Assembly: GCA_030917865.1 (NCBI GenBank)
Contig: JAUPTX010000007.1
Coordinates: forward strand, 1 to 32,217
Direction: 5' to 3'
Length of the DNA stretch: 32,217 nucleotides
Source of the DNA: Patescibacteria group bacterium
GTDB taxonomy: Bacteria > Patescibacteriota > Minisyncoccia > Phycocordibacterales > CSBR16-119
Made by a program: the position numbers and the translations under genes. The notes below the pieces were generated by a model. The model ran no database searches, was not told where the DNA came from, and was given only the letters and a program-made list of their open reading frames with translations. This document shows positions 1,187-23,321 of this stretch, piece by piece (within the stretch, counting starts at the first letter, position 1; each line of letters starts with the position of its first letter).

Positions 1187-2264
1187 ATTTCTCTACGTGT
1201 GTTAGAGTCATTTTTTGATCTTTTGGATCGAATAGGTTGATTTGGAAATTATAAGTTTTTCCAAGTTCAAGATGTTCTCTTAGTTTTTCTTCTCCACCAA
1301 ATGATGAATTGTGAACAAGTCCAGCAACTCCTTCTTTGATAGAAATAAGAGCTCCGTGTTTGTTAAATTTGATAACAACACCAGAAATTATGTCTCCTTT
1401 CTTTAGTTTGCCTTCAAATTCTTTCCAAGGATTTTCTTTGAAAACTTTTAGAGATAGAGAAATCTTTCCATCTTTGATTTCAATAATTCTAGCTTTTACT
1501 TTGTCTCCAACTTTGAACATTTTTCTTGGGTCATCGATAAGTCCCCAATCTATTTCAGAGATGTGTACAAGACCTTCTAGACCTTCTTCTATCTTAAGGA
1601 AGATACCGAAGTCTACAATTCCTGCGATTTCACAATCTAGATCATCTCCTACGTGGTATTTATCTACAACACCCATTCTTTCTTCTTGGTTTGTTGTTTT
1701 TTCAGAGAAAACAAGTTTGTCTTCTTTTGGATTTGCAGAAATTATGTTTACAGACATTTTTTGTCCAACAAATTTCTTCAATTCTCTTAATATTTTATCT
1801 TTGTCTGAATCCTCAACTCTAGGGTAATTTTCTGGTCTTAGTTGAGAAGCTGGCAAGAATCCTTGAATTCCTTTCCATTCTATAATAAGTCCACCTTTGT
1901 TTGCTTCTTTAACCGGAAGTTCGATAACAGCCTTGCTTGCAATAAGATCTTCAGCTTCTTTCCAAACCAAAGCTTGTCTTGCTTCTTTTAGAGAAAGTTC
2001 AGTGTATCCTTCTTCGTTTTGAACTTCTATAATTTTCGCTTTAATAAGATCACCTTTTCTGATTTTCTTGATTACATCTCTTGCGTTGATATATTCTTTT
2101 CCAAAAATTATACCTGTACCAAAAGTTCCAAGATCAACGAAAACCGATGCCTTGTGTGTATCTATAATTTTACCTTCTACTATATCTCCAGCTTTTAGAG
2201 TGAAAATTTTGTCATCTATTAGCTTAGATAGTTCAGGATTTTTTGATTCTGTTTTAATATCCAT
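1185..2264 (-). CDS. rpsA: 30S ribosomal protein S1 (four S1 repeats)
   Basis: RNA-binding ribosomal protein that helps load mRNA on the 30S subunit. It has 359 residues from the ATG at 2264. Four OB-fold S1 repeats are visible: roughly 20-95 (AGDIVEGKII), 110-185 (GGLIIEWKGIQGFLPASQL), 200-275 (VDFGIFLKIEEGLEGLVHIS) and 285-355 (KHGALISIKEGVAGLVHNSS). This is shorter than the six-repeat proteobacterial S1 and close to the length in many Gram-positive and Patescibacteria relatives. The frame is open upstream to an ATG at 2363, but those 33 residues are basic and unlike S1, and they coincide with two leader hairpins, so the start at 2264 is preferred. There is no clear Shine-Dalgarno sequence before it. 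Confidence 0.92.
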   Translation of the reverse strand: MDIKTESKNPELSKLIDDKIFTLKAGDIVEGKIIDTHKASVFVDLGTFGTGIIFGKEYINARDVIKKIRKGDLIKAKIIEVQNEEGYTELSLKEARQALVWKEAEDLIASKAVIELPVKEANKGGLIIEWKGIQGFLPASQLRPENYPRVEDSDKDKILRELKKFVGQKMSVNIISANPKEDKLVFSEKTTNQEERMGVVDKYHVGDDLDCEIAGIVDFGIFLKIEEGLEGLVHISEIDWGLIDDPRKMFKVGDKVKARIIEIKDGKISLSLKVFKENPWKEFEGKLKKGDIISGVVIKFNKHGALISIKEGVAGLVHNSSFGGEEKLREHLELGKTYNFQINLFDPKDQKMTLTHVEK

Positions 2265-2335
2265 AAAAAATATCCGCTTATTAGGCGGATTAACCAATGG
2301 GATTTTAGGTTTTATAAAGTTTTTACGCTTTATAA
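2265..2335 (-). promoter_or_regulatory. Structured rpsA leader with terminator-like hairpin
   Basis: Two inverted repeats lie just upstream of the rpsA start. The proximal one pairs 2272-2277 with 2285-2290 (ATCCGC/GCGGAT, 7-base loop) and on the rpsA strand is followed by a run of T that runs into the ATG. The distal one pairs 2312-2319 with 2328-2335 (TTATAAAG/CTTTATAA). The proximal hairpin plus T tract resembles an intrinsic terminator or a translation-blocking hairpin, so attenuation or S1 autoregulation is plausible. The function is inferred. Confidence 0.45.
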
Positions 2336-2445
2336 GGTTAGCCTTAAACCCGACTAATAACATTGCAATAGTAATATAATTTGACTAAAAAGTAAAGCCT
2401 CGCCGTGATTTCCACATTTTAAAGAAATTTTAACCATTTTTCGTA

Positions 2446-2451
2446 TATAAT
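2446..2451 (+). promoter_or_regulatory. Probable -10 box for the 2481-6161 operon
   Basis: A perfect TATAAT lies 29 bases before the ATG at 2481 in an A+T-rich spacer. No good -35 hexamer is visible, so this is a weak promoter assignment based on the -10 box and its position alone. Confidence 0.4.
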
Positions 2452-2480
2452 AAATGTATTAATAAATTAGTTCTTACTTT

Positions 2481-2855
2481 ATGTCTAAAAATAATTGGTC
2501 AAATTATTACCTTAAGGCAACCCAGAGTATATTTTTGGTTGCCGGAATACTTATGGTGTTCACCTTCCCTTATTTTTTAAAATATTTTAATTTCTCGGGG
2601 ATGGCTTTGATGTTTATTATGGTGCTTCTCGCGGTGCTTGCTGGCTACACTGGCGGTGGAAACAAGCTTATTCTAAAATTCAATGCCTTAGTTGCTATTG
2701 CTGGCTTTGTTATGTCGGCTTATAGAGGAGTCGTGATTTTTTTCAGAGGCGTAGAAGAACCTTTGGCGATATTTTCTTTTTGGACGCATCAGCTTTTAGC
2801 TCTAGTTTTCTTTTTGGCGATTTACTTTGCAGTTAGAGCAATGAGGTCAGCATAA
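2481..2855 (+). CDS. Small four-helix membrane protein, unknown
   Basis: A 124-residue protein that is mostly hydrophobic, with four probable membrane helices at about 14-32, 38-56, 64-88 and 97-118. The loops are short and carry few charges. I do not recognise the family and no catalytic motif is visible. It ends 11 bases before the VirD4-like ATPase and shares its strand, so the two are probably co-transcribed. Membrane coupling of the neighbouring soluble ATPase would be a reasonable role, because that ATPase has no N-terminal membrane helices of its own. This is only inferred from context. Confidence 0.75.
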   Translation: MSKNNWSNYYLKATQSIFLVAGILMVFTFPYFLKYFNFSGMALMFIMVLLAVLAGYTGGGNKLILKFNALVAIAGFVMSAYRGVVIFFRGVEEPLAIFSFWTHQLLALVFFLAIYFAVRAMRSA

Positions 2856-2866
2856 TATTATTTTAA

Positions 2867-4720
2867 ATGTTTGAACCAGACAGGATAACATACTTCGGAG
2901 AAACCGATTTCCGAGGAAAAAAAACACGTTTTGGGATAAAGGCGGAAGATAGATCTCGCCATGTTTATGTTATTGGTAAAACTGGTATGGGTAAATCTAC
3001 CTTGCTTGAAAACATGGCTTCTCAAGATATTAAAAATGGAGAAGGTCTTTGTTTTATTGACCCGCACGGTAGTGCTATAGACACGCTTATAGAATACATT
3101 CCAGAAGAAAGGCTAAACGACGTAATATATTTTGCGCCGTTTGATTCAGAATATCCAATTTCCTTTAATGTCCTCGAAACTGTTCCAGAAGACCAGAGAT
3201 ATTTGGTTGTTCAAGGTCTTATGTCTACATTCGACAAAATTTGGCCAGACACTTTTTCTGAAAGAATGAAATATATTTTAAGTAATACACTTTTAGCACT
3301 ACTTGAGTATCCCGGCTCAACTCTTTTGGGTGTAAACAGGATGTACGCAGACAAGGGCTATAGACAAGAAGTTGTGAAAAATATTTCTGATCCAACAGTT
3401 AAAACTTTTTGGGTTGATGAATTTGAAAAATGGGATGAACGATTTATGCGTGAAGCAACTGCAGCTATTCAAAACAAGATTGGTCAGTTCACAGCGAATC
3501 CTTTAGTTAGAAATATTATCGGTCAAAAGAATTCAAGTTTTGATTTTCGAGAGGTGATGGATAAGAAAAAAATCCTTCTTATAAACCTTTCAAAAGGTAG
3601 AATTGGAGAACAAAACTCTGGGCTTTTGGGTGGAATGCTTATCACAAAAATTTATTTGGCTGCAATGTCGCGCGCCGACGTTTCCAAATCTGATATGGCA
3701 GACCTACCACCGTTTTTCCTTTTTGTGGACGAGTTCCAAAACTTTGCTAACGAATCCTTTGCTGATATTTTGGCTGAAGCGAGAAAGTATAAATTAAATC
3801 TTACTATTGCCCACCAATACGTCGCCCAGATGGAAGACGAAGTTCGTGACGCTGTTTTTGGTAACGTCGGTACGACAATATCTTTTAGAGTTGGACCCTT
3901 GGATGCCGAGCTTTTGGAAAAAGTTTTTGTTCCAACCTTTACTCAAGAAGATATTGTAAATCTGGGGCGCTTCCAAATGTATCTTACTCTTATGATAGAC
4001 GGCGTGGGGTCCAAACCTTTTTCAGCTGTTTCTCTTTCTCCTTTACCTAAAAATCCAATTTCTTTTAGAGACGAAGTTATAGATTATTCTAGAAATAATT
4101 TTGCAAACAAAAGAGAGGTTATCGAACAGTATATTAATGAATGGTATAAGAAAGAATTTTTTACAGAAAAACAAAGAAAAGAAGTTGAGAAAAAAGAGGA
4201 TTATTTAAAAAGCAAATTTGGGCAAGGATATAAACCAAGAGGCGCAAGGCCGGACGATGAATATTCTGGTGCTTTTGTTCCGAGCGAGCCAAAGAAGTCG
4301 GAATTTAAGAAAAAAGATGATCTTAAGAAAGATAGAGATGTTCAAAAGAAGGTTTCAAAAATAGTAATACCTGAAGAGATTAAAAATAAAGTTGTAAACG
4401 GTGCCCCAGAAAAGAAAGAAGAAATATCTTTAAAAGATATGTCTTTAAATCTGCAAAAGCCAAATATTTCTGTAAAAGATCCAAGACCAGAAAGTAAATC
4501 TTTGTTAAAAGACGCGCTTTCAAAAGTTCTAAAAAAGGAAGAGCCTAAAGAGGCTGTAAAAGTTGATCAACCTAAAAATATTGATAATAAAAATAATTTT
4601 CAAAAACCAGAAAAAGAAGAAGAGTCAAATAATTCACAAACCTCAAATAATCCTAATCAAAAAAATAACCAAACAATAAAAGAAGTACCTGAAGATATAT
4701 TAAAAAGAATATTAGAATAA
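2867..4720 (+). CDS. VirD4/TraG-like conjugative-type ATPase
   Basis: A 617-residue P-loop ATPase of the type IV secretion coupling-protein/HerA-like group. The Walker A motif GKTGMGKST is at 37-45, very near the N-terminus. FIDPHGSAID follows at about 62, and Walker B LFVDE is at 285-289 within FFLFVDEFQNFANES. A TraG-like region (ARKYKLNLTIAHQYVAQM) follows. From about residue 430 the protein becomes a Lys/Glu/Asn-rich, low-complexity tail. It lacks the N-terminal transmembrane helices of classical VirD4, so it may act as a peripheral motor. It is followed after one base by a secreted lamin-tail protein. A link to the pilin array at 17143-21520 is inferred. A DNA-processing or secretion role is likely, but no relaxase is in the window. 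Confidence 0.87.
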   Translation: MFEPDRITYFGETDFRGKKTRFGIKAEDRSRHVYVIGKTGMGKSTLLENMASQDIKNGEGLCFIDPHGSAIDTLIEYIPEERLNDVIYFAPFDSEYPISFNVLETVPEDQRYLVVQGLMSTFDKIWPDTFSERMKYILSNTLLALLEYPGSTLLGVNRMYADKGYRQEVVKNISDPTVKTFWVDEFEKWDERFMREATAAIQNKIGQFTANPLVRNIIGQKNSSFDFREVMDKKKILLINLSKGRIGEQNSGLLGGMLITKIYLAAMSRADVSKSDMADLPPFFLFVDEFQNFANESFADILAEARKYKLNLTIAHQYVAQMEDEVRDAVFGNVGTTISFRVGPLDAELLEKVFVPTFTQEDIVNLGRFQMYLTLMIDGVGSKPFSAVSLSPLPKNPISFRDEVIDYSRNNFANKREVIEQYINEWYKKEFFTEKQRKEVEKKEDYLKSKFGQGYKPRGARPDDEYSGAFVPSEPKKSEFKKKDDLKKDRDVQKKVSKIVIPEEIKNKVVNGAPEKKEEISLKDMSLNLQKPNISVKDPRPESKSLLKDALSKVLKKEEPKEAVKVDQPKNIDNKNNFQKPEKEEESNNSQTSNNPNQKNNQTIKEVPEDILKRILE

Positions 4721-4721
4721 A

Positions 4722-6161
4722 ATGTATAAAATTTTATTATTTTTTACCTTATTTTTTGTACCGTTTTTTGCTAAGGCTGAAATTTATTTTTCAGAGATCG
4801 CTTGGATGGGCACTAGTGATTCTGCAAATGAAGAATGGATAGAAATATATAATAGTGGTGAAGAAACCCCTCTTTCTGGTTGGAAAATATTTGAAGCGGG
4901 CGGTGTAACACAAGTTATATCTTTGTCTGGAAGCATTTCTTCTGGTCAGCATCTTTTGGTTTGTAGAACGACACCGAGCGTGCCAAGTCCTTTGTCGGGC
5001 GGTTGTGACGTAAATGGTTCTTTTAGTGGAAGCGGGCTAAATAATGCCGGTGAAAATTTAACACTCGTGAATTCCTCAGGCTCTGTGGTGGACGAAATAA
5101 ACGCTTCTTCTGGTTGGCCGGCTGGAGATTCTTTTACTAAAGAAACTATGCAAAAATCGGGCTCGAGTTGGGTGACAGGATCTCCTACGCCTGGTGCTGC
5201 TAATATAACTTCTTCTAGTGGTGGCGAAAATGGAACCGATGAAGAAGAGGATGAAGAAGATAATAATTCAGAAGATGGAAATGACGAAGAGGGTTCTAAT
5301 ACATCGTCTTCGTCTAATAAGAAAGACACTAAGCCTAGTTATACAAAAAGACTGGTTGATATAAAAGTCGTAGATAATACTGTTCCTGTTGGGTCTCCAG
5401 TTAAATTTTATTTAGATACTAGAGATTTAAATGGTGCTAATATTACACGTGGGCAATTTTTTTGGAACATGGGAGATGGAACAGAAAGGTATTTTAGTAG
5501 GAATGAAAAATTTGAACATATATACGATCATGAAGGCACTTATGTTGTGACTTTAAAATATTACAAAACTTATTTTGAAGGGATTGAGCCTGACGCAACA
5601 GATAAAATAACAGTAACAATAGGAGGTTCCGGAGTTGTTATTTCAAAAATTCATTTAGATGGAAGTGTTGAGATAAAAAACACAACAAGTGGTGAAATAG
5701 ATTTGTCTCGGTGGGTCATGAGAGATAATTTTGGCAACAGCTTTACTATTCCAGATGAAACTTTTATACTAGGAAATAAATCTCTTACTTTAAATTCTAA
5801 AAGAACCCGGTTTACCAACTATTCAAATTCTGTAACTATTTTTAGTCCTAGTGGTAGTTTTGTTTCTTCTAAAAATAAATATGAAAATGATACCACGTCT
5901 TTCAAAGCAGGCACGGTGCGTTCTTCTGGTATTTCTTATGTTAACGAGGTGATGGCTAAAGAATTAGAAGACGCCGATGATACTATCGATTTAAACGAAA
6001 AGCTTGGCGCAAATGTATTAGATTCACAAAAACAAAAACAACCATCTTTTTGGATGATTGCTTTTGTTTTAATGCTCGCAATATCTTCTTTTGCAATTTA
6101 CTTTATTTACAAAAAGGAAGAAAGGGAAGAGGTTAAAGATGATTTTGAGTTGATTGATTAA
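4722..6161 (+). CDS. Secreted lamin-tail/PKD surface protein, C-terminal anchor
   Basis: A 479-residue cell-surface protein. A signal peptide ends at about residue 19 (FFAKA before EIYFSEIAWMG). Residues 20-150 form a lamin-tail domain (EEWIEIYNSGEETPLSGWKI). An acidic, Ser/Asn-rich linker follows at about 165-205. A PKD-like Ig fold spans roughly 215-300 (FFWNMGDGTE, then HEGTYVVTLKYY). A second lamin-tail-like domain covers about 305-390. A hydrophobic helix at about 443-463, followed by a charged tail, anchors the C-terminus. The start is one base after the ATPase stop, so the genes form one operon. Domain assignments rest on motif recognition. The ligand is unknown; adhesion or envelope scaffolding is plausible. 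Its 3' end overlaps the convergent DUF5667 gene by 29 bases. Confidence 0.85.
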   Translation: MYKILLFFTLFFVPFFAKAEIYFSEIAWMGTSDSANEEWIEIYNSGEETPLSGWKIFEAGGVTQVISLSGSISSGQHLLVCRTTPSVPSPLSGGCDVNGSFSGSGLNNAGENLTLVNSSGSVVDEINASSGWPAGDSFTKETMQKSGSSWVTGSPTPGAANITSSSGGENGTDEEEDEEDNNSEDGNDEEGSNTSSSSNKKDTKPSYTKRLVDIKVVDNTVPVGSPVKFYLDTRDLNGANITRGQFFWNMGDGTERYFSRNEKFEHIYDHEGTYVVTLKYYKTYFEGIEPDATDKITVTIGGSGVVISKIHLDGSVEIKNTTSGEIDLSRWVMRDNFGNSFTIPDETFILGNKSLTLNSKRTRFTNYSNSVTIFSPSGSFVSSKNKYENDTTSFKAGTVRSSGISYVNEVMAKELEDADDTIDLNEKLGANVLDSQKQKQPSFWMIAFVLMLAISSFAIYFIYKKEEREEVKDDFELID

Positions 6162-12685: not shown

Positions 12686-15142
12686 ATGGCAAAGAAAGAA
12701 GAAAATAATCTAGAAATAAAGAGAGATAAAGTTGTAGCTTCCAATATCGTAAAAGAGATGAAAGACTCTTATCTTTCTTATGCGATGTCTGTGATCACTT
12801 CTCGTGCTCTTCCAGATATTCGCGACGGTCTAAAACCTGTACACCGAAGAATTCTTTTTTCTATGCACAAATTAGGCGTTACTTCTTCTGCGAAATTTGT
12901 TAAATCTGCGAGAATTGTCGGAGACGTGATCGGTAAATATCACCCACACGGAGACTCTTCCGTTTATGATGCCATGGTTAACACAGTTCAAGATTTCTCT
13001 TTTAGATATCCGCTTGTTGTTGGGCAAGGAAACTTCGGTTCTATCGACGGAGACTCTGCAGCTGCGATGCGTTATACCGAGGCAAAAATGTCTAAATTCT
13101 CAGGAGACATGCTTCGAGATATTGAAAAAGACACAGTGGATTTTCGTCCAAACTTCGACGACACTTTAAAAGAGCCATCCGTACTACCAGCTGCTGTTCC
13201 GAATCTTTTATTAAATGGAACTCTTGGTATTGCGGTGGGTATGGCGACAAATATTCCTCCACACAACTTAGGTGAAGTTATAGATGCTACTCTTCATCTT
13301 ATTGATAATCCAAAAGCAACAGTCGAAGATTTGGCAGAATTCGTACAGGCGCCAGATTTTCCAACAGGAGGGCTTATTTACAACAAAAAAGATATTTTAG
13401 CTGCATACTCTACGGGTCGTGGTGGTGTGGTTTGTCGCGGTCAGGCAGAAATAACAGAAACAAAGGTTGGTCAGTCTCAAATAATAATTACTTCTATACC
13501 TTACAGGGTTTTGAAATCAAACCTTATTACTCAAATCGCAGATTTGTTTAGAGACAAAAAACTTCAAGGTCTAAAAGATTTACGAGATGAATCTACAACA
13601 GATATCAGAATCGTTATCGATCTTAAAAGCACGGCTCATCCTCAAAAAGTTTTAAATACTTTGTATAAAAATACTCAACTAGAACAAAATTTCAACTTTA
13701 ACATGGTTGCGTTGGTTGACGGCGTTCCTCAAACTCTTTCTTTGAAAGATTTCTTGTCAGAGTTCGTTTCTCACAGACAAGTTGTTGTAACCAGAAGAAC
13801 TAAATTTGACTTAGCTAAAGCCGAGGCGAGAGCTCATATACTAGAGGGTCTTAAAATGGCGCTCGATCATATTGATGAAGTTATAAAAACAATTAGAGCT
13901 TCAAAAGATAAAGAAGAGGCGAAGGCTAACTTGATGAAGAAATTTAAATTCTCAGATCTTCAAGCTATCGCCATTCTTGATATGCGACTTCAAAAACTTG
14001 CTGGTCTTGAGCGAAAAGAAATCGAAGACGAACTAAAAGAAAAACTTGCTCTTATTAAATATCTAAAAAGCCTTTTGGCTGACCCGAAGAAAATTTTAGC
14101 CGTTATTTCAGAAGAACTCAAAGAGATAAGAGAAAAATATGCAGACGAAAGAAGAACTCGCGTTATAAAAGGCGGAGTCAAATCTATTTCAGAAGAAGAT
14201 TTGATTGAAGAAAAAGATTCTGTCTTGGTCTATACTTTGGGCGGATATGTAAAAAGAACTGATCCAACAGAATATCGAAGTCAAAAACGTGGAGGTGTTG
14301 GTGTGGTAGATCTAGAAACAAAAGAAGAGGACGTTGTGACTCATCTTTTAAACACTTCAACTCATTCAGACTTACTATTCTTTACCAATATGGGTAAGGC
14401 ATACCAAATAAAAATGTTTGAAATCCCAGAAGGTCGTCGTGCAACAAAAGGAAAATCAATCATGAACTTCTTGTCTTTGTCAGCTGAAGAAAAGGTTACA
14501 TCTATCGTTGCGATGGATAAAGACAAAAAGGCAACAAGTGAATTCTTGCTTTTGGTTACAAAAGACGGTGTTGCGAAAAAGGTTTCTGCAGAAAGCTTTA
14601 AAGAAGTTCGCAGAAGTGGTTTGATAGCTATCAAGCTTTCAGCGGGTGACGAACTATATTCTGCAAACTTTATGGAAAAAGGTGACGAAGCTATTATTGC
14701 GACAAAGAAAGGTCAGTCTATAAGATTTAAGGGTACAGATATTCGTGAAATGGGTAGATCTGCTGGGGGGGTTCGTGGTATGAAGCTTTCAAAGGGTGAT
14801 CACGTAGTAGGTGTTGGAATTATCAAAAAAGATTTAAAAGACGCAACACTTCTCGTGATGTCTGAAAATGGTTTCGGAAAGAGAACAGAATTGAAAGAAT
14901 ATAAAACACAAAAAAGAGGTGGAAGCGGAATCAAGACAGCAAAGGTAACTTCAAAAACAGGGGACTTGGTTGTGGCATCACTTGTCACAGATGAGGTTTC
15001 TGAGATAATCGCTATCTCTAAGAAAGGGCAAGTGATAAAAACAGACATAGAATCAATCTCTGTTTTGGGAAGACAAACTCAAGGCGTAAAAATAATGAAG
15101 CCAAGAGCAGGGGATTCTCTAGCATCGCTTACATGTTTATAA
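12686..15142 (+). CDS. gyrA: DNA gyrase subunit A
   Basis: Type IIA topoisomerase subunit that cuts and rejoins DNA for negative supercoiling, working with GyrB (not in this window). The 818 residues cover the breakage-reunion domain with catalytic Tyr130 in [11 protein letters not shown], the coiled coil, and a C-terminal beta-pinwheel beginning at about 510. The pinwheel has the GyrA-box motif QKRGGVG, and a related QKRGGSG appears later, supporting gyrase rather than topoisomerase IV. The quinolone region keeps Ser91 and Asp95 ([10 protein letters not shown]), the residues usually associated with quinolone sensitivity. It follows two small genes on the same strand and ends in a strong palindromic terminator. 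Confidence 0.97.
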
Positions 15143-15178
15143 AATTAAAATCGCGCCAGATGGCGCGATTTTAATTTT
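15141..15178. terminator. gyrA terminator
   Basis: An 18-base perfect inverted repeat (15141-15158 with 15161-15178) and a GA loop: a G+C core TCGCGCCA between A-rich and T-rich arms. It overlaps the final base or two of the gyrA stop codon. Confidence 0.92.
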
Positions 15179-15191
15179 CACATATTTTTTC

Positions 15192-15220
15192 TTGTAAAAC
15201 TTTCTTTTCCGTCATACAAT
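15192..15220 (+). promoter_or_regulatory. Methyltransferase promoter, leaderless
   Basis: TTGTAA at 15192-15197, a 17-base spacer, TACAAT at 15215-15220, then six bases to the ATG at 15227. The spacing implies transcription starts at the start codon. Confidence 0.7.
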
Positions 15221-15226
15221 TATCTT

Positions 15227-15763
15227 ATGTCACTTAACTTTTCAAATCCAAAAGAAAATATTAAACATCTTTATTTAAAAGAAGGAGACGTTGTTGCTGA
15301 TTTTGGTTCTGGTGCCGGACACTACATTGAAGAAGTTTCAAAAATAATTGGACCTTCTGGAAAAGTCTATGCCGTAGATATTCAAAAAGATCTACTGCTA
15401 AAATTATCAAATGATTTTAATAAGAAAAACATTAAAAACTTTGAGATAATTTGGAGCGATCTCGAATCACCAGAAGGTTCTAAATTACAATCAGGTTCTT
15501 TAGATGCGGTTGTATTGTCCAATCTTTTATTTCAGGTAGAAAATAAAATTGCTGTTGTTAAGGAGATTTGGCGTGTTTTAAGGCACGGCGCAAAAGTTCT
15601 TGTAATAGATTGGTCAGATTCTTTTGGCGGCATTGGTCCTATTTTAAAAGATGTTGTTTCAGAAGAAGCGTGTATAAAATTATTTGAACAAAATGGTTTT
15701 TCTATTTTAAAAAGAGCTCCTGCTGGTGCTCATCATTATGGTCTTGTTTTTACTAAGTCTTAG
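15227..15763 (+). CDS. Class I SAM-dependent methyltransferase
   Basis: A 178-residue Rossmann-fold methyltransferase. Motif I is VVADFGSGAGHY at about 22-33, the acidic residue ending strand 2 is in VYAVDIQ at about 48-54, and DAVVLSNLLFQVE (about 88-100) and EIWRVLRHGAKVLVIDW (about 108-124) are the motif IV and V regions. The size and pattern resemble the ubiquinone/menaquinone or arsenite-type branch, but no substrate can be assigned; the cysteine motifs of arsenite methyltransferases are absent. The gene stands alone with its own promoter between gyrA and the pilin-associated cluster. Confidence 0.87.
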   Translation: MSLNFSNPKENIKHLYLKEGDVVADFGSGAGHYIEEVSKIIGPSGKVYAVDIQKDLLLKLSNDFNKKNIKNFEIIWSDLESPEGSKLQSGSLDAVVLSNLLFQVENKIAVVKEIWRVLRHGAKVLVIDWSDSFGGIGPILKDVVSEEACIKLFEQNGFSILKRAPAGAHHYGLVFTKS

Positions 15764-15820
15764 AAATACCCAGTTTTGTTTTTTAATTTTTCATTTTTAC
15801 TTTAAAATATAGTATGTAAT

Positions 15821-17140
15821 ATGAAAAATTTTCAAATTATTCTACTTATTGTTTTTGGTCTTTTTGCTGGACTTGCTTTGGCTTTTTTCTCTGGTGGAAT
15901 AGATCTTCCTCAAAGGGCCGCAGATAGTCCTACTGGAGGTGTGACTGGTTCTGTGACAATGTGGGGAACATTACCATCTTCGACTTTGCGTTCAACGATA
16001 GACTATTTAAATACAACATTTGGCGGTAGTGTCACATTAAGATATATACAAAAAGATCCTCAAACATACGAAGAAGAGCTTTTAAATGCTTTTGCTTTTG
16101 GTGGCGCCCCAGATATTCTTTTATTATCAAACAGCCTCATAAGTTTATACGAAGACAAAATCGTCACTGTTCCATACGCAGCTTTTTCTGAAAGAGCTTT
16201 TTCTGACTCGTATATACAAGCTGCCGATGTTTTTAAAAATGAAACAGGGATACTTGGTTTTCCTGTTTTGGCAGATCCCCTGATTATGTTTTATAACAAA
16301 AGTCATTTTGACTCAAAAGGCATTTCAACCCCTCCTGTTTATTGGAAGGATCTTTCTTTACTCGTACCAACATTCACAGAAAAAAATGAAGTTTTGGAAA
16401 TTAAAAAAAGCGGACTTGCTTTTGGAGAAACAGTAAATGTTCGAAACTTTAAAGAAATAATTTCAGCCTTGAATTTACAACTCGGCAACCCTATAACTCA
16501 AAGAGATTTTAATACTGCTGTTTATAAGTCCGTTTTTTCTAATAATTCACCAATATCTTCAAAGCCAGCAGAAGAAGCGTTGAAATTTTATTTAGAATTT
16601 TCTAATCCATTAAAATCAAATTATTCTTGGAATAAAAGCATGCCAGATTCTTTGCAGGCTTTTGTTGCAGGTGACCTGTCTGTGTATTTTGGTCTTGCAA
16701 GCGAGATACCCCTAATACAAAGGATGAATCCAAACCTAAATTTTGACGTCGCGATAATTCCACAAGTTGAAGGTTCTCCAAGTTTTGTTACTTATGCAAA
16801 CGTTTATGCATTGGCTATACCAAAAACTTCTCAAAATTTTCAAGCCGCATATTATGTTTCTGGTCAAATATCAAACACAGATATAGCCAGTCCTTTTTCT
16901 ATCGCATCTGGACTCACTCCTGTTCGAAGAGATTTATTAAAACCTTCTTCTGCATATTCTAAATATATAGAAGTTGCGTATCGTGCAGCTCTTCAATCTA
17001 AATCTTGGGTTATACCAAACTCCAAAGAAGTTGAAAAAATATTTGCAAGTATGGTTGAAAGTAATATTTCCGGACTTAAAAATATTTCAAAATCTATAAC
17101 AGATGCTTCTGTGGAATTACAAACAATTATGACCAGATAG
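15821..17140 (+). CDS. Membrane-anchored solute-binding-like protein
   Basis: A 439-residue extracytoplasmic protein resembling family 1 (sugar-type) ABC substrate-binding proteins. Residues 5-25 are a hydrophobic signal or anchor without a lipobox cysteine. The mature part shows VTMWGTLPSSTL, then NAFAFGGAPDILLLSNSLI, then ILGFPVLADPLIMFYNKSHF, a typical two-lobe binding-protein pattern. No ABC permease or ATPase gene is nearby. Instead it is followed after two bases by the first pilin-like gene, so it probably belongs to the pilus/secretion operon, perhaps as a surface receptor. A -10-like TATAGT at 15808-15813 lies seven bases before the ATG. Confidence 0.82.
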   Translation: MKNFQIILLIVFGLFAGLALAFFSGGIDLPQRAADSPTGGVTGSVTMWGTLPSSTLRSTIDYLNTTFGGSVTLRYIQKDPQTYEEELLNAFAFGGAPDILLLSNSLISLYEDKIVTVPYAAFSERAFSDSYIQAADVFKNETGILGFPVLADPLIMFYNKSHFDSKGISTPPVYWKDLSLLVPTFTEKNEVLEIKKSGLAFGETVNVRNFKEIISALNLQLGNPITQRDFNTAVYKSVFSNNSPISSKPAEEALKFYLEFSNPLKSNYSWNKSMPDSLQAFVAGDLSVYFGLASEIPLIQRMNPNLNFDVAIIPQVEGSPSFVTYANVYALAIPKTSQNFQAAYYVSGQISNTDIASPFSIASGLTPVRRDLLKPSSAYSKYIEVAYRAALQSKSWVIPNSKEVEKIFASMVESNISGLKNISKSITDASVELQTIMTR

Positions 17141-17142
17141 CT

Positions 17143-18384
17143 ATGAATTTAAATTTTATCAGAAAAATATTTCTAGGATCTTTTGTGGGACTTTTCTTGC
17201 CCTTGTTTGCTTTTGCTCAGTCAGGAACACAAATACAAAACATTTCTTGGAATCTTGATTCTACTAATCCATTCTCTGTTTCTGGTGGTGGCACGATGAC
17301 TTTAAACGGCAATACTTGGCAACAAATATCAAATACATTCAAATGGCAAATACAGTGGGGTTATGCTGGTAATTATACTCCAGAGTCTGGAAGCAATGCG
17401 TCTTTGGGCGGAGAATCTGTGTTTATGGGATATATTCCTAACAACGCAACACCTACAAACCTTTTTACTTCTACTGCCTCACACTTGTCTCAGGTGCCAG
17501 GAACCAACCAATACGTTTTTAATATTCCATCTGTTTTTCAAAATGTTCTTTGGCCTGCTTCAAATTATTATTTTGATATTATTGAATGGGATCAAGCGGG
17601 AACAGATGGAACAAGAAGATTTTTTGAAGGAGTTGTTCAGACCGACAGGCTAAATCCAAGTTCTGTAACCTTAAATGTTAACCAGGGTTCAAACAATGCA
17701 TATCTTATAAACTTTACTGTAAACGGTCCACAAAATATTTTAAACAGCATGCCTGTTTCTTTGTATATTACCAACTCTCAAGCTACTGGTGCTGTAGACA
17801 CTGCGCCTCAAAACCCAATTTGGGCTGGAACTGCAACATTTTCTCAGAATACATTAAATTTCAGCATACCGTCTGGGATACTAAACACCGGAACAAATTA
17901 TTATCTTAGAATTATCAATGCTCAGCCTGGTGCCGGTGGACTTAGTTTGTTGGATCAAGATATTTTGATAAACGTGCCGGCGCCAACCACACCTCCTTCT
18001 GGTGGAGGTTCTCAAAATCCAACCAACCCAAACACTGATCAAGGAGACTTCGCTTCTCCAGACGATTTTTCTAATGGTATCGTTAATTGTGACGGGGTTA
18101 ATGTTGAATGTAATTTTGAAAGATTGCTTGATCTCGTTAACAGGTCAGTTAATTTTGTAATATTCATAATCGGTATTCCTTTAGTTGCCCTGTCTTTTGT
18201 TTATGCTGGATTTTTAATGGCAACAAGTGGCGGAAGTAGTGGAAAAAAAGATCAAGCAAAAGCCGCGATATCAGGTGCTGTAACAGGACTTATAATACTT
18301 TTAGCTGCATGGCTAATTGTCCGAACAGTTCTTCTTGTTTTTGGTTACCAAGGTCCTTTATTAGGAATTTTAGGAGCTAACTAA
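17143..18384 (+). CDS. Pilin-like protein 1, large secreted domain
   Basis: A 413-residue type IV secretion pilin-like protein (VirB2/TrbC type). A signal peptide ends at about residue 24 (LFAFAQ). The exported part of about 260 residues is rich in Ser, Thr, Asn and aromatic residues, looks all-beta, and ends in a Pro/Gly/Asn linker. Two membrane helices follow at about 338-362 (VIFIIGIPLVALSFVYAGFL) and 377-402, separated by the short charged loop GGSSGKKDQAKAAI. That hairpin is the pilin signature shared with the next five genes. It starts two bases after the solute-binding gene. The ectodomain has no recognised family; it may display or bind ligand at the cell surface. Confidence 0.82.
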   Translation: MNLNFIRKIFLGSFVGLFLPLFAFAQSGTQIQNISWNLDSTNPFSVSGGGTMTLNGNTWQQISNTFKWQIQWGYAGNYTPESGSNASLGGESVFMGYIPNNATPTNLFTSTASHLSQVPGTNQYVFNIPSVFQNVLWPASNYYFDIIEWDQAGTDGTRRFFEGVVQTDRLNPSSVTLNVNQGSNNAYLINFTVNGPQNILNSMPVSLYITNSQATGAVDTAPQNPIWAGTATFSQNTLNFSIPSGILNTGTNYYLRIINAQPGAGGLSLLDQDILINVPAPTTPPSGGGSQNPTNPNTDQGDFASPDDFSNGIVNCDGVNVECNFERLLDLVNRSVNFVIFIIGIPLVALSFVYAGFLMATSGGSSGKKDQAKAAISGAVTGLIILLAAWLIVRTVLLVFGYQGPLLGILGAN

Positions 18385-18385
18385 T

Positions 18386-19393
18386 ATGAAAAATTTTTTA
18401 ATCAAAATAATATTTGCACTTTCTATATCGACAACGTCTTTTTTGATTGCTGATATAAAAGAAGCAAGAGCCGAGTGTCAGATATTAAACGCAAGTTTTA
18501 GAACTCTTGGGCAAAACGGTCAACCGATGCAACAAATCTCGTTAACAAACTGGTATTCAGACAGTGTTCGCCCATATGTTTATGTAGACGTTCAAACGCT
18601 GGGATGCAATGGACAAACTATACAGTTTAGTTTGACTGAATTTGATGACGCTCTTTTAAATCCTACAGGTAATTTACAGTTTAATATAAATAGTGATGAT
18701 GTAAACGGTATGGATTTGTCAGACCAGGATTTTATGACCGGTTTTAATTGTACTAATCAATCATATTGCATAGATAATCGTTCTATTCCAATAGGCTCTG
18801 CGGCTTCAGAAAATAATTTTACCGTTGTTCTTCGGTCCGGTGAAGATGAATGTGATCAGATCTCTGATATTGATTGTAGATACTTTGTAAGAATAAATGA
18901 TAATTGGATTCCTTCATCTGCCATAAACATATCTCAGGTTCAAAGGCTTGAATACAACTGCGATAGTCTTTGTGATGAATCTTGGACTTGGATAGATGTT
19001 ATCTCTTACTTACAAACTCATCCAAATGACCCAGCTCTTGCTACGGATGACACATCAAACAACAATACTACCACCACAGCTGTCGGTGTTACAAACGTAC
19101 CGGTAGATATCGAGAACCCAATAGGTGATTCTGATATGACCATAATAGATTTCATAGAAAAAATAATAGACTTTGCAATAACAGTAGGTATACCGATAGT
19201 TGCATTAGCTATAATCTATTCTGGACTTTTGTTTGTGACAGCACGTGGTAATCCAAGTCAAATAGAAACAGCCAAAACTGCTTTTACATATGCTGTTATC
19301 GGTGGAGCACTTCTTTTAGGTGCTTGGATTTTTGCTAGAATTATACGAGACGCGCTTAATAGTTTGGCGATGATTATGAATTATTTTGTTTAG
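18386..19393 (+). CDS. Pilin-like protein 2, cysteine-rich ectodomain
   Basis: A 335-residue pilin-like protein. A signal peptide ends near residue 29 (KEARA before ECQIL). The secreted region of about 215 residues has eight cysteines, including GCNG, FNCT, YCID, DECDQ, DCRY, YNCDS and LCDES, suggesting up to four disulfides outside the membrane. The C-terminal hairpin consists of a helix (IPIVALAIIYSGLLFVTA) at about 270-287, the loop RGNPSQIETAKTAF, and a second helix (AVIGGALLLGAWIFARII) at about 303-322. It starts one base after the previous stop, with an AGGAG sequence inside that gene. Cysteine content distinguishes it from pilin-like protein 1; the function of the domain is unknown. 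Confidence 0.82.
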   Translation: MKNFLIKIIFALSISTTSFLIADIKEARAECQILNASFRTLGQNGQPMQQISLTNWYSDSVRPYVYVDVQTLGCNGQTIQFSLTEFDDALLNPTGNLQFNINSDDVNGMDLSDQDFMTGFNCTNQSYCIDNRSIPIGSAASENNFTVVLRSGEDECDQISDIDCRYFVRINDNWIPSSAINISQVQRLEYNCDSLCDESWTWIDVISYLQTHPNDPALATDDTSNNNTTTTAVGVTNVPVDIENPIGDSDMTIIDFIEKIIDFAITVGIPIVALAIIYSGLLFVTARGNPSQIETAKTAFTYAVIGGALLLGAWIFARIIRDALNSLAMIMNYFV

Positions 19394-19394
19394 T

Positions 19395-20213
19395 ATGAAT
19401 TTTTTAAGAAAAATATTTTTATCGCTTTCTTTATTCATTTTTCCTTCAGTGGTTTTTGCTGGCCCTAGTATTATGTGGGAAAACACACCCACAATAGATC
19501 AGGGTGTAATAACTGGGTATTTAAATATTTCAGGAATAGATTCTCAAACACCACCGCTAACAGTTCTTATTTTTAGTGATTCTGATCCAGAATTTAATCC
19601 ATATACTTCTTATGCAAACCTTAGTTTGGCTCAAAATGGACCATTGACTTTTCAAGCACCAGCTGACGGTGTTCTTACATACTTTTTGCCAGTTTTAGTT
19701 GACGGATCGTTATTGAATGGCCAGCAGCTAAATCCTTTTGCATCCTATACTGTTGGTCAGGTTGCAAATATATCTCCTGCAAATAATAACAATGGTGGTT
19801 TCGGGGGCAACCAGGGAGGTAACCCTACTGGCGGCGGAAACCAAAATCCTAATTCCACAAACCCAAATCCAACCGATAATAATAATCCACAAACTTCATC
19901 TGGCTGGCCAAACGAAGCTATCGACAACCCTCTAGAAGTAGACAACCTAAACAACTTTATAGCAAATGTTTTAAATGCCTTTTTAAAGATAGCGATACCT
20001 ATACTTGCTCTTTTCTTGATTTATTCTGGTCTGAAGTTTGTGATAGCTCGCGGCAACGAAAAAGAGCTCGAGACTGCCAAACAAAACTTGCTTTGGACTG
20101 TGGTTGGTGGGACAATACTTTTAGGTGCTTGGACAATAGTAAAGATACTTAAAGGTACCGTAGAAGAACTTGATATTACGTTAATTAATAGCTTAGTAAA
20201 TTATTTTGTATAA
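19395..20213 (+). CDS. Pilin-like protein 3, short ectodomain
   Basis: A 272-residue pilin-like protein from the ATG at 19395, one base after the previous stop; a TTG three codons earlier is an unlikely start. The signal peptide ends at about residue 20 (PSVVFAG). A beta-type secreted domain of about 110 residues is followed by an Asn/Gly/Pro-rich linker (GGFGGNQGGNPTGGGNQNPN), then the two-helix hairpin: ILALFLIYSGLKFVIA, loop RGNEKELETAKQNL, and LLWTVVGGTILLGAWTIVKIL. The loop and second helix are closest to pilin-like protein 2, suggesting duplication. The linker probably spaces the exposed domain from the membrane hairpin. Confidence 0.82.
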   Translation: MNFLRKIFLSLSLFIFPSVVFAGPSIMWENTPTIDQGVITGYLNISGIDSQTPPLTVLIFSDSDPEFNPYTSYANLSLAQNGPLTFQAPADGVLTYFLPVLVDGSLLNGQQLNPFASYTVGQVANISPANNNNGGFGGNQGGNPTGGGNQNPNSTNPNPTDNNNPQTSSGWPNEAIDNPLEVDNLNNFIANVLNAFLKIAIPILALFLIYSGLKFVIARGNEKELETAKQNLLWTVVGGTILLGAWTIVKILKGTVEELDITLINSLVNYFV

Positions 20214-20215
20214 AT

Positions 20216-20629
20216 ATGAAAAATATAATTATTAAATCCGTTGCATCTTTGTTCCTGACGTTTATGCCCGTGTTTGTTTTTGCACAAGCGCCGAACGTCA
20301 ACATAAACTATAACGCACAATCAACATCCAACAATGTCTGCGACAACGATATCGGTAGCATTTCAGAACTTTTTGATTTAGCAATATGTATACTTCAAAG
20401 ATCTGTTTGGCCATTACTGATATCTTTGTCTGTTATTGTATTTATAATCGGAGTTATAAAATATATTAAAAATGGTGACGACAGTAAAGCTAGAGAAGAG
20501 GGTAGAAATTTCATGATATATGGAATAATTGGACTTTTTGTCATGATATCTGTTTGGGGTTTGGTTGGTGTTTTGCAGGGAACATTTGGACTTGGAAACA
20601 GTGTATTTATTCCACAGCTTCCACAATAA
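20216..20629 (+). CDS. Pilin-like protein 4, minimal form
   Basis: A 137-residue VirB2-like pilin. The signal peptide ends near residue 24 (PVFVFAQ). About 35 polar residues with two cysteines (VCDND and AICIL) are followed by the membrane hairpin: helix PLLISLSVIVFIIGVIKYI, loop KNGDDSKAREEGRN, and helix FMIYGIIGLFVMISVWGLVGVL. A short hydrophobic C-terminus follows. The second helix has the Trp-Gly-Leu pattern shared with pilin-like protein 5 and differs from the LLGAW pattern of proteins 1-3. It begins two bases after the previous gene and probably ends the first pilin transcript, since a new promoter follows. Confidence 0.85.
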   Translation: MKNIIIKSVASLFLTFMPVFVFAQAPNVNINYNAQSTSNNVCDNDIGSISELFDLAICILQRSVWPLLISLSVIVFIIGVIKYIKNGDDSKAREEGRNFMIYGIIGLFVMISVWGLVGVLQGTFGLGNSVFIPQLPQ

Positions 20630-20643
20630 AACTTTGTTTTTGG

Positions 20644-20652
20644 TGGTATAAT
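20644..20652 (+). promoter_or_regulatory. Extended -10 promoter for pilin-like 5
   Basis: TGG at 20644-20646 directly precedes a perfect TATAAT at 20647-20652, just after the stop of pilin-like protein 4. It lacks a clear -35 box. The predicted start at about 20659 lies right before the structured leader. Confidence 0.7.
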
Positions 20653-20661
20653 TTAAAAAGG

Positions 20662-20722
20662 TATAAATTCCGCACTCATGGCGTGGTCACATGTGTGGTC
20701 GCTCCTTGGTTCGGAATTTATA
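20662..20722 (+). ncRNA. Structured 5' leader hairpin of pilin-like 5
   Basis: TATAAATTCCG (20662-20672) pairs exactly with CGGAATTTATA (20712-20722), an 11-base stem closing a 39-base loop. The loop contains an 8-base palindrome CACATGTG and is richer in G and C than the rest of the leader. It starts three bases after the predicted transcription start, so it would form the 5' end of the pilin mRNA. A stabilising or regulatory RNA element is inferred; it matches no riboswitch class I know. Confidence 0.55.
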
Positions 20723-20729
20723 TAAAATA

Positions 20730-20745
20730 TTATTAACGTTAATAA
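20730..20745. repeat. 16-base palindrome before pilin-like 5 start
   Basis: TTATTAACGTTAATAA is a perfect palindrome ending 13 bases before the ATG at 20759, at about the place a ribosome-binding site would occupy. It could be a protein-binding site or a weak RNA hairpin, followed by a short T tract. Confidence 0.5.
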
Positions 20746-20758
20746 ATTTTTTATTCAT

Positions 20759-21184
20759 ATGAATAAACTTTACAAAGTTCTAGGTTTCGCGGCTGTTATG
20801 GGTTCTCCTTTAATGGCTCTTGCTCAACCAGTGGGCGGTACACCAGTTGACGTTGGTGGACCAAATGCATTCAGTATCTTGGCTGTTATTGCCAACATAA
20901 TGAACATTATTATCCCTCTTTTGATTACTGCTGCTGTTATTTATATAATCGCAGGTATTCTAAAATACGTTACAGCTTCTGATGGTGACAAACAAGCAGA
21001 AGGAAGAACAATGATCATCTCTGGTGTTGTTGGTCTTTTCGTTATCGTTTCTATCTGGGGACTTGTTGCGATACTTAACTCAACATTTAGAATTCAACAA
21101 TCAGGTACTGCTACTCAAGTTGAATGTATCCCTGGAACACTTATTGGTTACGAAAACGGTCAACCTATATTCTGTCAAGAATAA
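20759..21184 (+). CDS. Pilin-like protein 5, probable major pilin
   Basis: A 141-residue VirB2-like pilin. The signal peptide ends at about residue 23 (PLMALAQ). After a Gly/Pro/Val-rich segment come helix 1 (IMNIIIPLLITAAVIYIIAGIL), the loop KYVTASDGDKQAEGRT, and helix 2 (MIISGVVGLFVIVSIWGLVAIL). A polar C-terminal tail with two cysteines (VECIPGT and IFCQE) may be exposed and disulfide-linked. It alone among the pilins has its own promoter and a structured leader, which suggests separate, probably higher expression, so it is the best candidate for the main structural subunit. That role is inferred. No strong Shine-Dalgarno site is seen. Confidence 0.87.
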   Translation: MNKLYKVLGFAAVMGSPLMALAQPVGGTPVDVGGPNAFSILAVIANIMNIIIPLLITAAVIYIIAGILKYVTASDGDKQAEGRTMIISGVVGLFVIVSIWGLVAILNSTFRIQQSGTATQVECIPGTLIGYENGQPIFCQE

Positions 21185-21187
21185 TAT

Positions 21188-21520
21188 ATGTGGCCTTTTG
21201 TCTTCACTGCTTATGCGTCGCTTGATAGCACCATAAAAAAAATAAATAAAGCTATAATAAACCCACTGATTGTTCTGATGTTTGCGATAGCGGCAGTATA
21301 TTTCTTATATGGGCTCTATGAGTTTATCAAAGATGCAGACAGTTCAGACGCAAGAGAAACAGGGAAGCGGCATATTATCTGGGGACTAATCGGGATGTTT
21401 ATAATGGTCGCTGTATACTTCATAATGGAGTTAATATTGGGCACGCTCGGTATTGGCACAGATCAGATAAACATAACTCCAGACAGTATTGATGTAAACC
21501 TTCCTCCAATCCAAGAATAA
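21188..21520 (+). CDS. Pilin-like protein 6, no obvious signal peptide
   Basis: A 110-residue protein with the same two-helix hairpin: helix 1 (PLIVLMFAIAAVYFLYGLYEFI), loop KDADSSDARETGKRHI, helix 2 (IWGLIGMFIMVAVYFIMELIL). Unlike its neighbours it has only a short, weakly hydrophobic N-terminus (MWPFVFTAYA) rather than a full signal peptide. The loop is closest to that of pilin-like 4 (DDSKAREEG). It starts three bases after pilin-like 5 and ends at a strong terminator, closing the array. A minor pilin or assembly component is plausible. Confidence 0.82.
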   Translation: MWPFVFTAYASLDSTIKKINKAIINPLIVLMFAIAAVYFLYGLYEFIKDADSSDARETGKRHIIWGLIGMFIMVAVYFIMELILGTLGIGTDQINITPDSIDVNLPPIQE

Positions 21521-21550
21521 ATCAAAATCCGCCGAAAGGCGGATTTTGAT
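21521..21550 (+). terminator. Terminator of the pilin array
   Basis: ATCAAAATCCGCC (21521-21533) pairs exactly with 21538-21550 around a GAAA tetraloop, with a T-rich right arm. It follows the last pilin stop with no gap. Confidence 0.93.
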
Positions 21551-21563
21551 TTATAAAAAGAAA

Positions 21564-21592
21564 GAAGCCCGACCGTATGCCGGTCGGGCTTC
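21564..21592 (-). terminator. Terminator of the SPFH gene pair
   Basis: GAAGCCCGACCG (21564-21575) pairs with 21581-21592 around a TATGC loop. On the minus strand it is followed by TTTCTTTTT, a strong intrinsic terminator. Confidence 0.92.
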
Positions 21593-21621
21593 ATCTTTTC
21601 GCACCGTTGGTGCGGTAGGGT

Positions 21622-22269
21622 TCAGGCTTCAGCTTTCGCTTTCGCCATCTTTTCGAGTTCGTAATCGGTGAACTTGTTCTCGATACGGATCGTACCTGCT
21701 GGCACTTTCCGCATTGCGTTCTCACCGATCTTCACATAGAAACCACCTTGTGTCGGTGGGCTCTGTACTTTGTATGGCGTGACGTCTCCTTCTTTGTCGA
21801 TGAGGGAGTTGCCGTCATTGCCAACACGATACTCCGTGGTGCTACCGTCTACGTTGCGGTAGAGAAGTCTCAGGTCTACGTCCTGGAATGTGTAACCATT
21901 CGCGAGGACTATCTCTTGCTTCTTCTTGTCTTTAGCCACGAAGAGTACGTCGTATCGCTTACCAGCACACAGCTCAGGGAGCGTGTATGTTGTTTCGGCC
22001 ATCACGATGTTCTCCGACTTCATCCATCCTACGATGGAGAAGAAGATCGCCACAGCACCGAAAGCGGCCAAACCGTTCTTCCAGGTGATGTGCCCTGTGA
22101 CGCTTTGGGTTTTACCCCGAAGCGTATTCAACATACCTCCACTCGCCTTACCCTTGTCGGGGGTCGGAGTCTGGCTCTTTTGTTTACTTGCCTTGAACTT
22201 GTTTCCAAGCGTTCCAGCAAGTATTCCGCTGAGAGCCAGTACCACTAGAACTGCTATGAGTACGTTCAT
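21622..22269 (-). CDS. Two-helix membrane protein coupled to SPFH gene
   Basis: A 215-residue protein of unknown function. An N-terminal helix at about 2-22 (NVLIAVLVVLALSGILAG) is followed by a Lys/Ser/Thr/Pro-rich linker, a second helix at about 70-83 (GLAAFGAVAIFFSIVGWM), and a soluble C-terminal domain of about 130 residues with beta character, ending in a Lys/Ala-rich helix. Its ATG overlaps the SPFH stop as ATGA, so translation is coupled. The partnership suggests a membrane complex, much as NfeD-type proteins partner SPFH proteins, but I see no NfeD similarity. Base composition is clearly more G+C-rich than in the pilin genes beside it. Confidence 0.75.
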   Translation of the reverse strand: MNVLIAVLVVLALSGILAGTLGNKFKASKQKSQTPTPDKGKASGGMLNTLRGKTQSVTGHITWKNGLAAFGAVAIFFSIVGWMKSENIVMAETTYTLPELCAGKRYDVLFVAKDKKKQEIVLANGYTFQDVDLRLLYRNVDGSTTEYRVGNDGNSLIDKEGDVTPYKVQSPPTQGGFYVKIGENAMRKVPAGTIRIENKFTDYELEKMAKAKAEA

Positions 22270-23321
22270 TGCTTTTTTGTGTTTCGTTCGTTCTGAAGGG
22301 GGAGTGATGTCAGTACTCCATTTCCGAGTACAAAAGTTGCTCCTGGCTGTAGACCTTTCATGCCCTCTTCGATATGCACGCCGATGTTGCCACGACTCGC
22401 GTCAACAATTGCCTTGCGAACTTCAGCCTGTGCCATTCCTGTTTTCATGGTTCGGTTGACTTCTTGCTCAACCGCAGGAATATCAGCGTCCCTCTTTGCT
22501 TCGTTCAGCTCTTTTTGCCTAACGGCTTCTGCGAGAGCGCCTGTGGGTTGGACAATGGGCAGATTCAGTTCGTGAATCTCACAGCCATATCCGTACCTTT
22601 CTAGCGCTTTGTTGGTCTGGAGGATTATTTCTTGTAGTATCTTATACTGCTCGGCATTGCCCCCAGATTCACTACTCATTTGCTGAACCTCTCCAATGGT
22701 CTTCATTGTTGCGACTTTTGGCCGAAGCATCGACTCAAAGTTATCACCAACAAGTACAGTAGGGTCTCCAGTTCTGTACTGATACCCATGTACGTTAGTG
22801 ATTCTCAGTGTGTATGAGAACGCAAATTCAACCAGGTTGCTACCCTCGATGGGTATACCACTGAGCACCAGGCCTTGCTTAATGAAGATCGGAGGTGCTG
22901 TATGGTAGGTGGCAGGCAGAACTTCGACCGTAGGAGTAATTACCCCAGATGGATCTTTTGAAACTTTTATTGCAGACTCTGTTATTTCAGAGCCAGCAAC
23001 TCCTCCGAACCACGGTAATGGTAACCAGGGGATTCCCGTGTAAACCATACCGAAGTAGCGAAAGAAAAAGTTCTCTCGAAGACCCTTGAGATAATTATTA
23101 TCCTTGTCTTCGTAGATGTTTCCATCTTCGTCAATTCCGTACCCTGGCTCGTTCAAGTAGTACCCAACGATGTTGGCACTACCAGCTTTTCTGTCGAGCC
23201 TTTTCCCAGAAGGTAGTTGGGTGAATGGTCCCCATTCCGTGAATGAGAAGCCGAAGAGGTACACCATCACGCAGATGGCGGTTAAGGCAATACCTACAAA
23301 GATTTCTCCGATGAGTTCCAT
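22266..23321 (-). CDS. SPFH/band-7 domain membrane protein
   Basis: A 351-residue SPFH (stomatin/flotillin) family protein, which forms membrane-associated oligomers and organises membrane microdomains. One N-terminal helix at about 6-26 anchors it. The SPFH domain covers roughly 125-250 (VEFAFSYTLRITNVHGYQYR), followed by a helical region rich in Ala, Glu and Lys (ALAEAVRQKELNEAKRDADI) typical of the coiled-coil extension, then a Gly-rich end. The start is supported by a consensus promoter about 70 bases upstream. It is coupled by overlap to the two-helix gene. A hand count of 22501-22560 gives 34 G+C of 60, against 18 of 60 at 20461-20520 in the pilins, so composition differs sharply. Confidence 0.87.
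   Translation of the reverse strand: MELIGEIFVGIALTAICVMVYLFGFSFTEWGPFTQLPSGKRLDRKAGSANIVGYYLNEPGYGIDEDGNIYEDKDNNYLKGLRENFFFRYFGMVYTGIPWLPLPWFGGVAGSEITESAIKVSKDPSGVITPTVEVLPATYHTAPPIFIKQGLVLSGIPIEGSNLVEFAFSYTLRITNVHGYQYRTGDPTVLVGDNFESMLRPKVATMKTIGEVQQMSSESGGNAEQYKILQEIILQTNKALERYGYGCEIHELNLPIVQPTGALAEAVRQKELNEAKRDADIPAVEQEVNRTMKTGMAQAEVRKAIVDASRGNIGVHIEEGMKGLQPGATFVLGNGVLTSLPLQNERNTKKQ

Follow-up and report, generated by a model that had tools for sequence, protein, structure and literature searches.

A six-gene array of type IV secretion system-like pilins, three of them with distinct ectodomains, downstream of gyrA

Six open reading frames lie head to tail on the + strand of the window (the whole stretch of DNA analysed, 32,217 nucleotides) at 17143-21520, all of them where a preliminary description had placed them. 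They are moderately likely to encode pilins of a chromosomal type IV secretion system (T4SS) that build a hetero-pilin surface structure, with P5 as the polymer and P1, P2 and P3 as minor, receptor-like subunits. The source organism is a patescibacterium (Paceibacteria), ultra-small and probably episymbiotic, and is represented by a genome of 463 kb that is 76% complete and was covered here apart from contigs C1, C2 and C10. The array bears on how the Patescibacteria, ultra-small organisms that form a very large group and for the most part depend on hosts, recognise those hosts and feed on them; in the only species tested so far, the T4SS is essential. Where earlier work saw a "variable array of pilins", the present analysis gives a list of parts that can be tested, comprising a main pilin, receptor-bearing pilins and a conserved partner protein that is not named in the papers searched. 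If this reading is true, the ectodomains at the first position would be candidate determinants of host specificity that could be read directly from genomes.

The array, its limits and the pilin hairpin

The array is preceded by gyrA, a methyltransferase-like gene and a gene for a solute-binding-protein-like (SBP-like) protein, and this order, continuing into the pilins, recurs in most relatives of the locus, the named ones being Nomurabacteria, Kaiserbacteria, Campbellbacteria and similar groups. Hairpins after gyrA and after P6 delimit the unit (Table 1), and an Rfam search of the window returned tRNAs only. The array had been described as closed by one terminator, which agrees with the strong hairpin at its 3' end but not with its interior, where a gap of 129 nt, holding a promoter-like site, lies before P5 and leaves the array not fully closed. 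Behind the array is a convergent gene pair (21622-23321, - strand), read by eye as encoding a 215-aa protein and a 351-aa SPFH/prohibitin-like protein; convergent pairs of similar size recur behind the arrays at loci L076, L079 and L071.

Table 1. Coordinates of the pilin array and associated features in the window
Feature	Position	Strand	Basis or remark
Terminator-like hairpin 3' of gyrA, marking the upstream end of the unit	15143..15176	+	RNA fold z -6.45
SBP-like protein, 439 aa, membrane-anchored, extracellular, no lipobox; head gene of the array	15821..17140	+	Alignment A1, profile search
P1 (class F1): signal peptide, beta-rich ectodomain nt 17221-18057, two-cysteine junction, hairpin nt 18136-18333	17143..18384	+	PF18895, AF2, tree
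P2 (class F2): eight-cysteine ectodomain, hairpin nt 19151-19354	18386..19393	+	PF18895, tree
P2 cysteine ectodomain, family A2	18461..19024	+	Common to domain-hairpin proteins of virB4 operons
P3 (second class-F2 copy): ectodomain of about 110 aa, Asn/Gly/Pro-rich linker, hairpin nt 19956-20162	19395..20213	+	PF18895, PF04956, tree
P4 (class M): minimal, hairpin nt 20399-20587	20216..20629	+	PF18895, tree
Extended -10 promoter-like site TGGTATAAT, 115 nt before P5	20644..20652	+	Only such site on this strand within 15001-22000
Long imperfect hairpin in predicted P5 leader	20660..20722	+	RNA fold z -3.6
P5 (class L2, penultimate): predicted major pilin, hairpin nt 20888-21088	20759..21184	+	PF18895, codon usage
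P6 (class L1, last): minimal, hairpin nt 21245-21448	21188..21520	+	PF18895, tree
Terminator hairpin closing the array after P6, 17-bp stem	21517..21554	+	RNA fold z -8.65

All six proteins pass the gathering cutoff (26.6 bits) of the T4SS_pilin family PF18895, scoring 36.8, 27.3, 42.4, 35.8, 29.1 and 29.4 bits from P1 to P6, which, together with hydropathy, bears out the earlier claim that the six genes share a two-helix hairpin. The TrbC/VirB2 family PF04956 is reached by P3 alone (28.5 bits, cutoff 27.9), P2 falling below it at 21.1 bits and the other four giving no match, and the proteins are therefore best labelled "VirB2-like" and not taken as six members of PF04956; in this form the VirB2-like identity first proposed is backed by Pfam. 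The matches to PF18895 above cutoff in all six, with P3 also passing PF04956, argue that the hairpin family is not a chance resemblance. Matches to the Mbov_0395 family of pilin-like conjugal transfer proteins (NF045849) are weak for all six and each is below the curated cutoff (best 34.3 bits, cutoff 40). By hydropathy, every protein has a helix-loop-helix and P1-P5 also have a hydrophobic signal segment at the N terminus, P6 being without a full signal peptide; with this exception the proteins have the traits of TrbC/VirB2 conjugative pilins, namely a signal peptide and two membrane helices around a short polar loop. The loop had been described as charged throughout, which does not hold for P1, where it is weakly charged.

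AF2 models contain two long helices in P5 (37-72 and 76-109, pLDDT about 90) and helices 325-360 and 366-399 in P1. A fold search with the single P5 chain gave no match at 0.001 and no VirB2 pilin, a bare two-helix hairpin being hardly diagnostic, and a PDB profile search with the P5 class gave nothing convincing. Translation of P3 may begin at ATG 19395 or at TTG 19386. Identity with a type IV pilus (PilA) was considered and rejected, since the proteins match T4SS_pilin and genes resembling those for a T4P-type ATPase and a prepilin peptidase are found, on by-eye reading, elsewhere in the genome.

Gene order in relatives and the penultimate pilin

Across 85 arrays of at least four pilins from order-level relatives (448 hairpins), 80% of hairpins have a best match in another genome that carries an identical position label, compared with 21% (maximum 26%) when labels are shuffled within arrays. 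On a tree of the hairpins the position labels need 82 changes as opposed to 271 after shuffling, and class L1, the last pilin, needs 11 as opposed to 78.5. The tree divides an upstream superclass, F1 plus F2 (support 99), from the remaining pilins. In order, the window pilins belong to classes F1, F2, F2, M, L2 and L1, and the placement of P3 suggests that it is a duplicated F2 with an ectodomain of its own, although single placements are uncertain in a tree that has few columns and many unresolved forks. Array size varies between 1 and 9 genes across the relatives. The preliminary description held that a joint machine would become unlikely if homologues lacked the hairpin or if gene order were random among close relatives; the hairpin is in fact retained in homologues, and the genes keep their order. 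Two hairpin matches are present in 16.5% of third pilins, and middle pilins of 227-270 aa (the third or a nearby one) at L139, L153, L165, L170, L173, L182 and L186 resemble two fused hairpins.

Three independent features, namely spacing, promoter motif and codon usage, set the penultimate pilin apart. A gap of more than 100 bp lies before it in 66% of arrays, while first, second and last pilins have such a gap in 6-7%, and the motif TGnTATAAT occurs no further than 200 nt upstream of 27% of penultimate pilins, as against 1% (maximum 6%) in shuffles. Codon usage of P5 lies at the 97.9th percentile of ribosomal-protein likeness and that of the other five pilins between 9 and 67, relative to a small reference set of seven genes. 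Over the 85 arrays the penultimate pilin has an excess of C-ending (NNC) codons over every other position (p 3e-5 to 2e-11), and this excess persists after correction for amino-acid make-up. With codon bias and promoter-like motif taken as proxies for expression, the site before P5 and its ribosomal-protein-like codon usage lead to the prediction that P5 is the major pilin. In metatranscriptomes of Paceibacterales enrichments, T4SS pilins are among the most expressed genes with signal peptides (PMC10936435). The hairpin in the predicted P5 leader was rejected as a general feature, the median z in relatives being -0.27.

Ectodomains and the link to the T4SS core

Classical VirB2 proteins are small major pilins without large N-terminal domains, whereas P1, P2 and P3 carry about 330, 255 and 190 residues, respectively, before the hairpin, signal peptide and linker counted. 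The three ectodomains do not match one another and the one on P2 has eight cysteines, both in line with the earlier claim. Of 106 untruncated arrays, 19 contain at least one pilin in which the hairpin is preceded by more than 150 residues, three contain two or more such pilins, and the window array alone contains three, all lengths being taken from a simple ORF caller with signal peptides included. Where arrays hold at least four pilins, such domains are carried by 20% of first pilins, 3.5% of second pilins, about 1% of third and last pilins and 0% of penultimate pilins. The "graded" set that had been proposed does not hold as a general trait, most relatives having small pilins throughout and large ectodomains being almost confined to first pilins. 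The array at L073, which belongs to the same family, likewise consists of six pilins whose N-domains shrink from one to the next; its P1 and P2 align with those of the window over the hairpin region alone, suggesting that turnover of ectodomains is faster than that of hairpins. Locus L078 encodes two orphan pilin-hairpin proteins outside any array (1234-3438 and 13391-18274; N-domains of about 660 and 1550 residues), the first of which sits among type IV pilin-like genes.

Replacement of the P1 ectodomain within a family, together with the range of array sizes, would suit a cassette of interchangeable paralogues for antigenic or host-range variation, as proposed for the VirB2 arrays of Bartonella and Anaplasma and put forward in the published analysis (PMC12102498). 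However, positional orthology that is fixed across the order is the opposite of interchangeable copies, and variation is concentrated in the ectodomain and not in the choice of copy, which leaves such a cassette improbable. A search of 397 genomes with the P1 ectodomain found only itself; the AF2 model is beta-rich and of low confidence (mean pLDDT 56.7), and a fold search gave weak matches only (TapA, Ig and FN3-like; best E 0.0065). Since the P1 ectodomain has no recognised relative, the binding role given here to the ectodomains of P1-P3 is assumed.

Contig C7 (L039) of the same genome encodes PrgI (PF12666, E 6e-10) and VirB4 (PF19044, E 6e-27), both above cutoff, and so holds the combination of VirB4 with PrgI/VirB3 expected of a patescibacterial (MPF-FATA-like) T4SS. 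It also holds a TrsD-like gene, a homologue of Sec320, whose gene follows virB4 in relatives, and a polytopic VirB6-like fragment of 500 aa that is homologous to genes in the same place in relatives, with no Pfam VirB6 match. The array is on contig C4 and is not close to virB4, and in relatives too it follows gyrA; closeness of pilin arrays to virB4 is common in the literature and is not defining. Sec320 (a secreted protein of 236-392 aa with a weak Ig-like match) and C521 (a membrane protein of 440-550 aa) are recurrent parts of T4SS core operons in this order, with sites downstream of virB4 at L215-L218 and L234-L241 and at L039 6017-6466. At 2481-6161 of the window, genes for a small membrane protein and a secreted protein flank one for a TraD/VirD4-like ATPase of 617 aa that scores below the NCBIfam cutoffs, away from both the array and the virB4 contig, and two differing SecA-like proteins of 845 aa were read by eye elsewhere in the genome (L037 1082-3619 and L053 5262-7799).

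As a single query the P2 ectodomain matched four other genomes, and the profile of its family, A2, reached 12 of the 397, the window genome included. Outside the window genome, A2 stands at the N terminus of proteins that also carry a pilin-like hairpin; their C-terminal domain, where Pfam identifies one, is an M15 or NlpC/P60 peptidoglycan hydrolase; further C-terminal domains resemble such enzymes by eye. These genes adjoin those for VirB6-like proteins, PrgI, TrsD and VirB4, with the exception of one of two copies in genome G054, which is on a contig without a labelled core gene. Among the genomes matched, the domain is carried by an array pilin in the window genome only, and the virB4 contig of that genome ends just before the expected place of the domain-hairpin gene. 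A PDB profile search with the P2 ectodomain gave nothing convincing. The shared domain ties the gyrA-side array to the T4SS core by a route that does not depend on the hairpin. At L241 (7555-12062), two very similar adjacent cysteine-domain/hairpin genes (739 and 745 aa) are present in the virB4 operon.

Generic two-helix membrane proteins unrelated to T4SS might be suspected from hairpins that are simple and low in information and from an array that adjoins gyrA and not virB4, but matches to PF18895 and PF04956, a T4SS core in the genome and an ectodomain common to virB4-operon proteins make this highly improbable. It is conceivable, though somewhat unlikely, that no filament is made and that the hairpins form a membrane ring or channel or are plain two-helix anchors, the ectodomain pilins being surface adhesins on a pilin-like anchor. 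The virB4 operons do use the same hairpin to anchor large proteins in which an ectodomain precedes it and an M15, NlpC/P60 or lytic-transglycosylase-like domain follows, and these are hardly filament subunits; very large N-domains, such as the longest at L078, would crowd a pilus, and pilins are absent from the Gram-positive T4SS known so far (PMC12102498, PMC12857230). Nevertheless, five or six conserved positional classes with one highly expressed minimal member resemble a polymer with minor subunits, and P4-P6 have no ectodomain in need of an anchor.

The hetero-pilin reading retains much of the earlier claim of one multi-subunit device, in favour of which stand the conserved order, the persistence of the hairpin, the core genes in the genome and the link between P2 and virB4-operon proteins; filament formation and contact with a host are inferred. 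In a hetero-pilin structure the hairpins would insert in the membrane with N and C termini outside, as VirB2 does, and P5, made in excess, would polymerise on a VirB4/VirB6/PrgI core. P1, P2 and P3 would be minor subunits, made at low level, that display variable binding domains outward. They would be confined to the tip or the base, since domains of 260 residues would clash if each subunit of a helical pilus bore one, and may perform the contact job done elsewhere by VirB5 and adhesins. P4 and P6 would be structural or nucleating subunits, and the anchored SBP-like protein might act at the same site, as a receptor or an assembly factor. The likely task would be host contact for an episymbiont and transport through the T4SS. 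More tentatively, and with some doubt, labour in a hetero-polymeric T4SS pilus may be divided by gene order, between a promoter-boosted major L2, conserved minor pilins, lineage-specific receptor-binding domains at the first position (some common to core peptidoglycan-hydrolase proteins) and a standing SBP, a device that would join the recognition of a host to uptake or delivery and take the place of VirB5.

Published arrays and the SBP-like head gene

Tandem VirB2 arrays in Patescibacteria have already been published (Quinonero-Coronel et al. 2025, PMC12102498). These hold 2-11 pilins each, with the emphasis on variability, and resemble the window array in their tandem, mutually divergent PF18895/VirB2-like pilins and in belonging to genomes with MPF-FATA-like VirB4. 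The passages covered mention neither fixed positional classes nor a predicted major pilin, and in term searches of the paper's text solute-binding proteins, gyrA and extracellular domains did not come up. Southlakia epibionticum ML1 is described, in PMC12857230, as having six sequence-divergent VirB2-like pilins in an essential array (Wang et al. 2023, as cited there), its T4SS and pilin array being essential for epibiotic growth. The likeness lies in the six divergent VirB2-like pilins and in a T4SS of an episymbiont; on that account the S. epibionticum array is inside the T4SS locus, whereas the window array follows gyrA and an SBP-like gene and has three pilins with ectodomains. A literature search for the combination of SBP, array and ectodomains found nothing among open-licence papers. 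New in relation to the published arrays are the fixed order, the SBP-like head gene, the ectodomains on first pilins, the predicted major pilin and the domain link between P2 and the core.

Profile A1, made from 16 homologues of the SBP-like protein, matched 484 distinct sequences of solved structures at 1e-3 or better, the best being a maltose-type SBP (4r9f, 2e-19). By profile, the protein has the fold of the maltose-type ABC solute-binding proteins, but it differs from them in its N-terminal membrane anchor, its linkage to pilins and the lack of an adjoining ABC permease gene in the window, where its neighbours are gyrA, the methyltransferase gene and the pilins. No match to the SBP query was found in G001, one of two genomes covered from the same family, and the head gene is thus either not universal or too diverged there. 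A pilin lies 3' of the SBP-like gene at 71 of the 73 loci fetched by the SBP-like protein that had enough DNA, and the gene is upstream of 48 of 53 pilin clusters (at least three genes, with enough upstream DNA). In a sample of 287 genomes from the phylum, 213 encode relatives of the SBP-like protein, and at 13 of 18 phylum-wide loci inspected the gene is followed by pilins, some with large N-domains.
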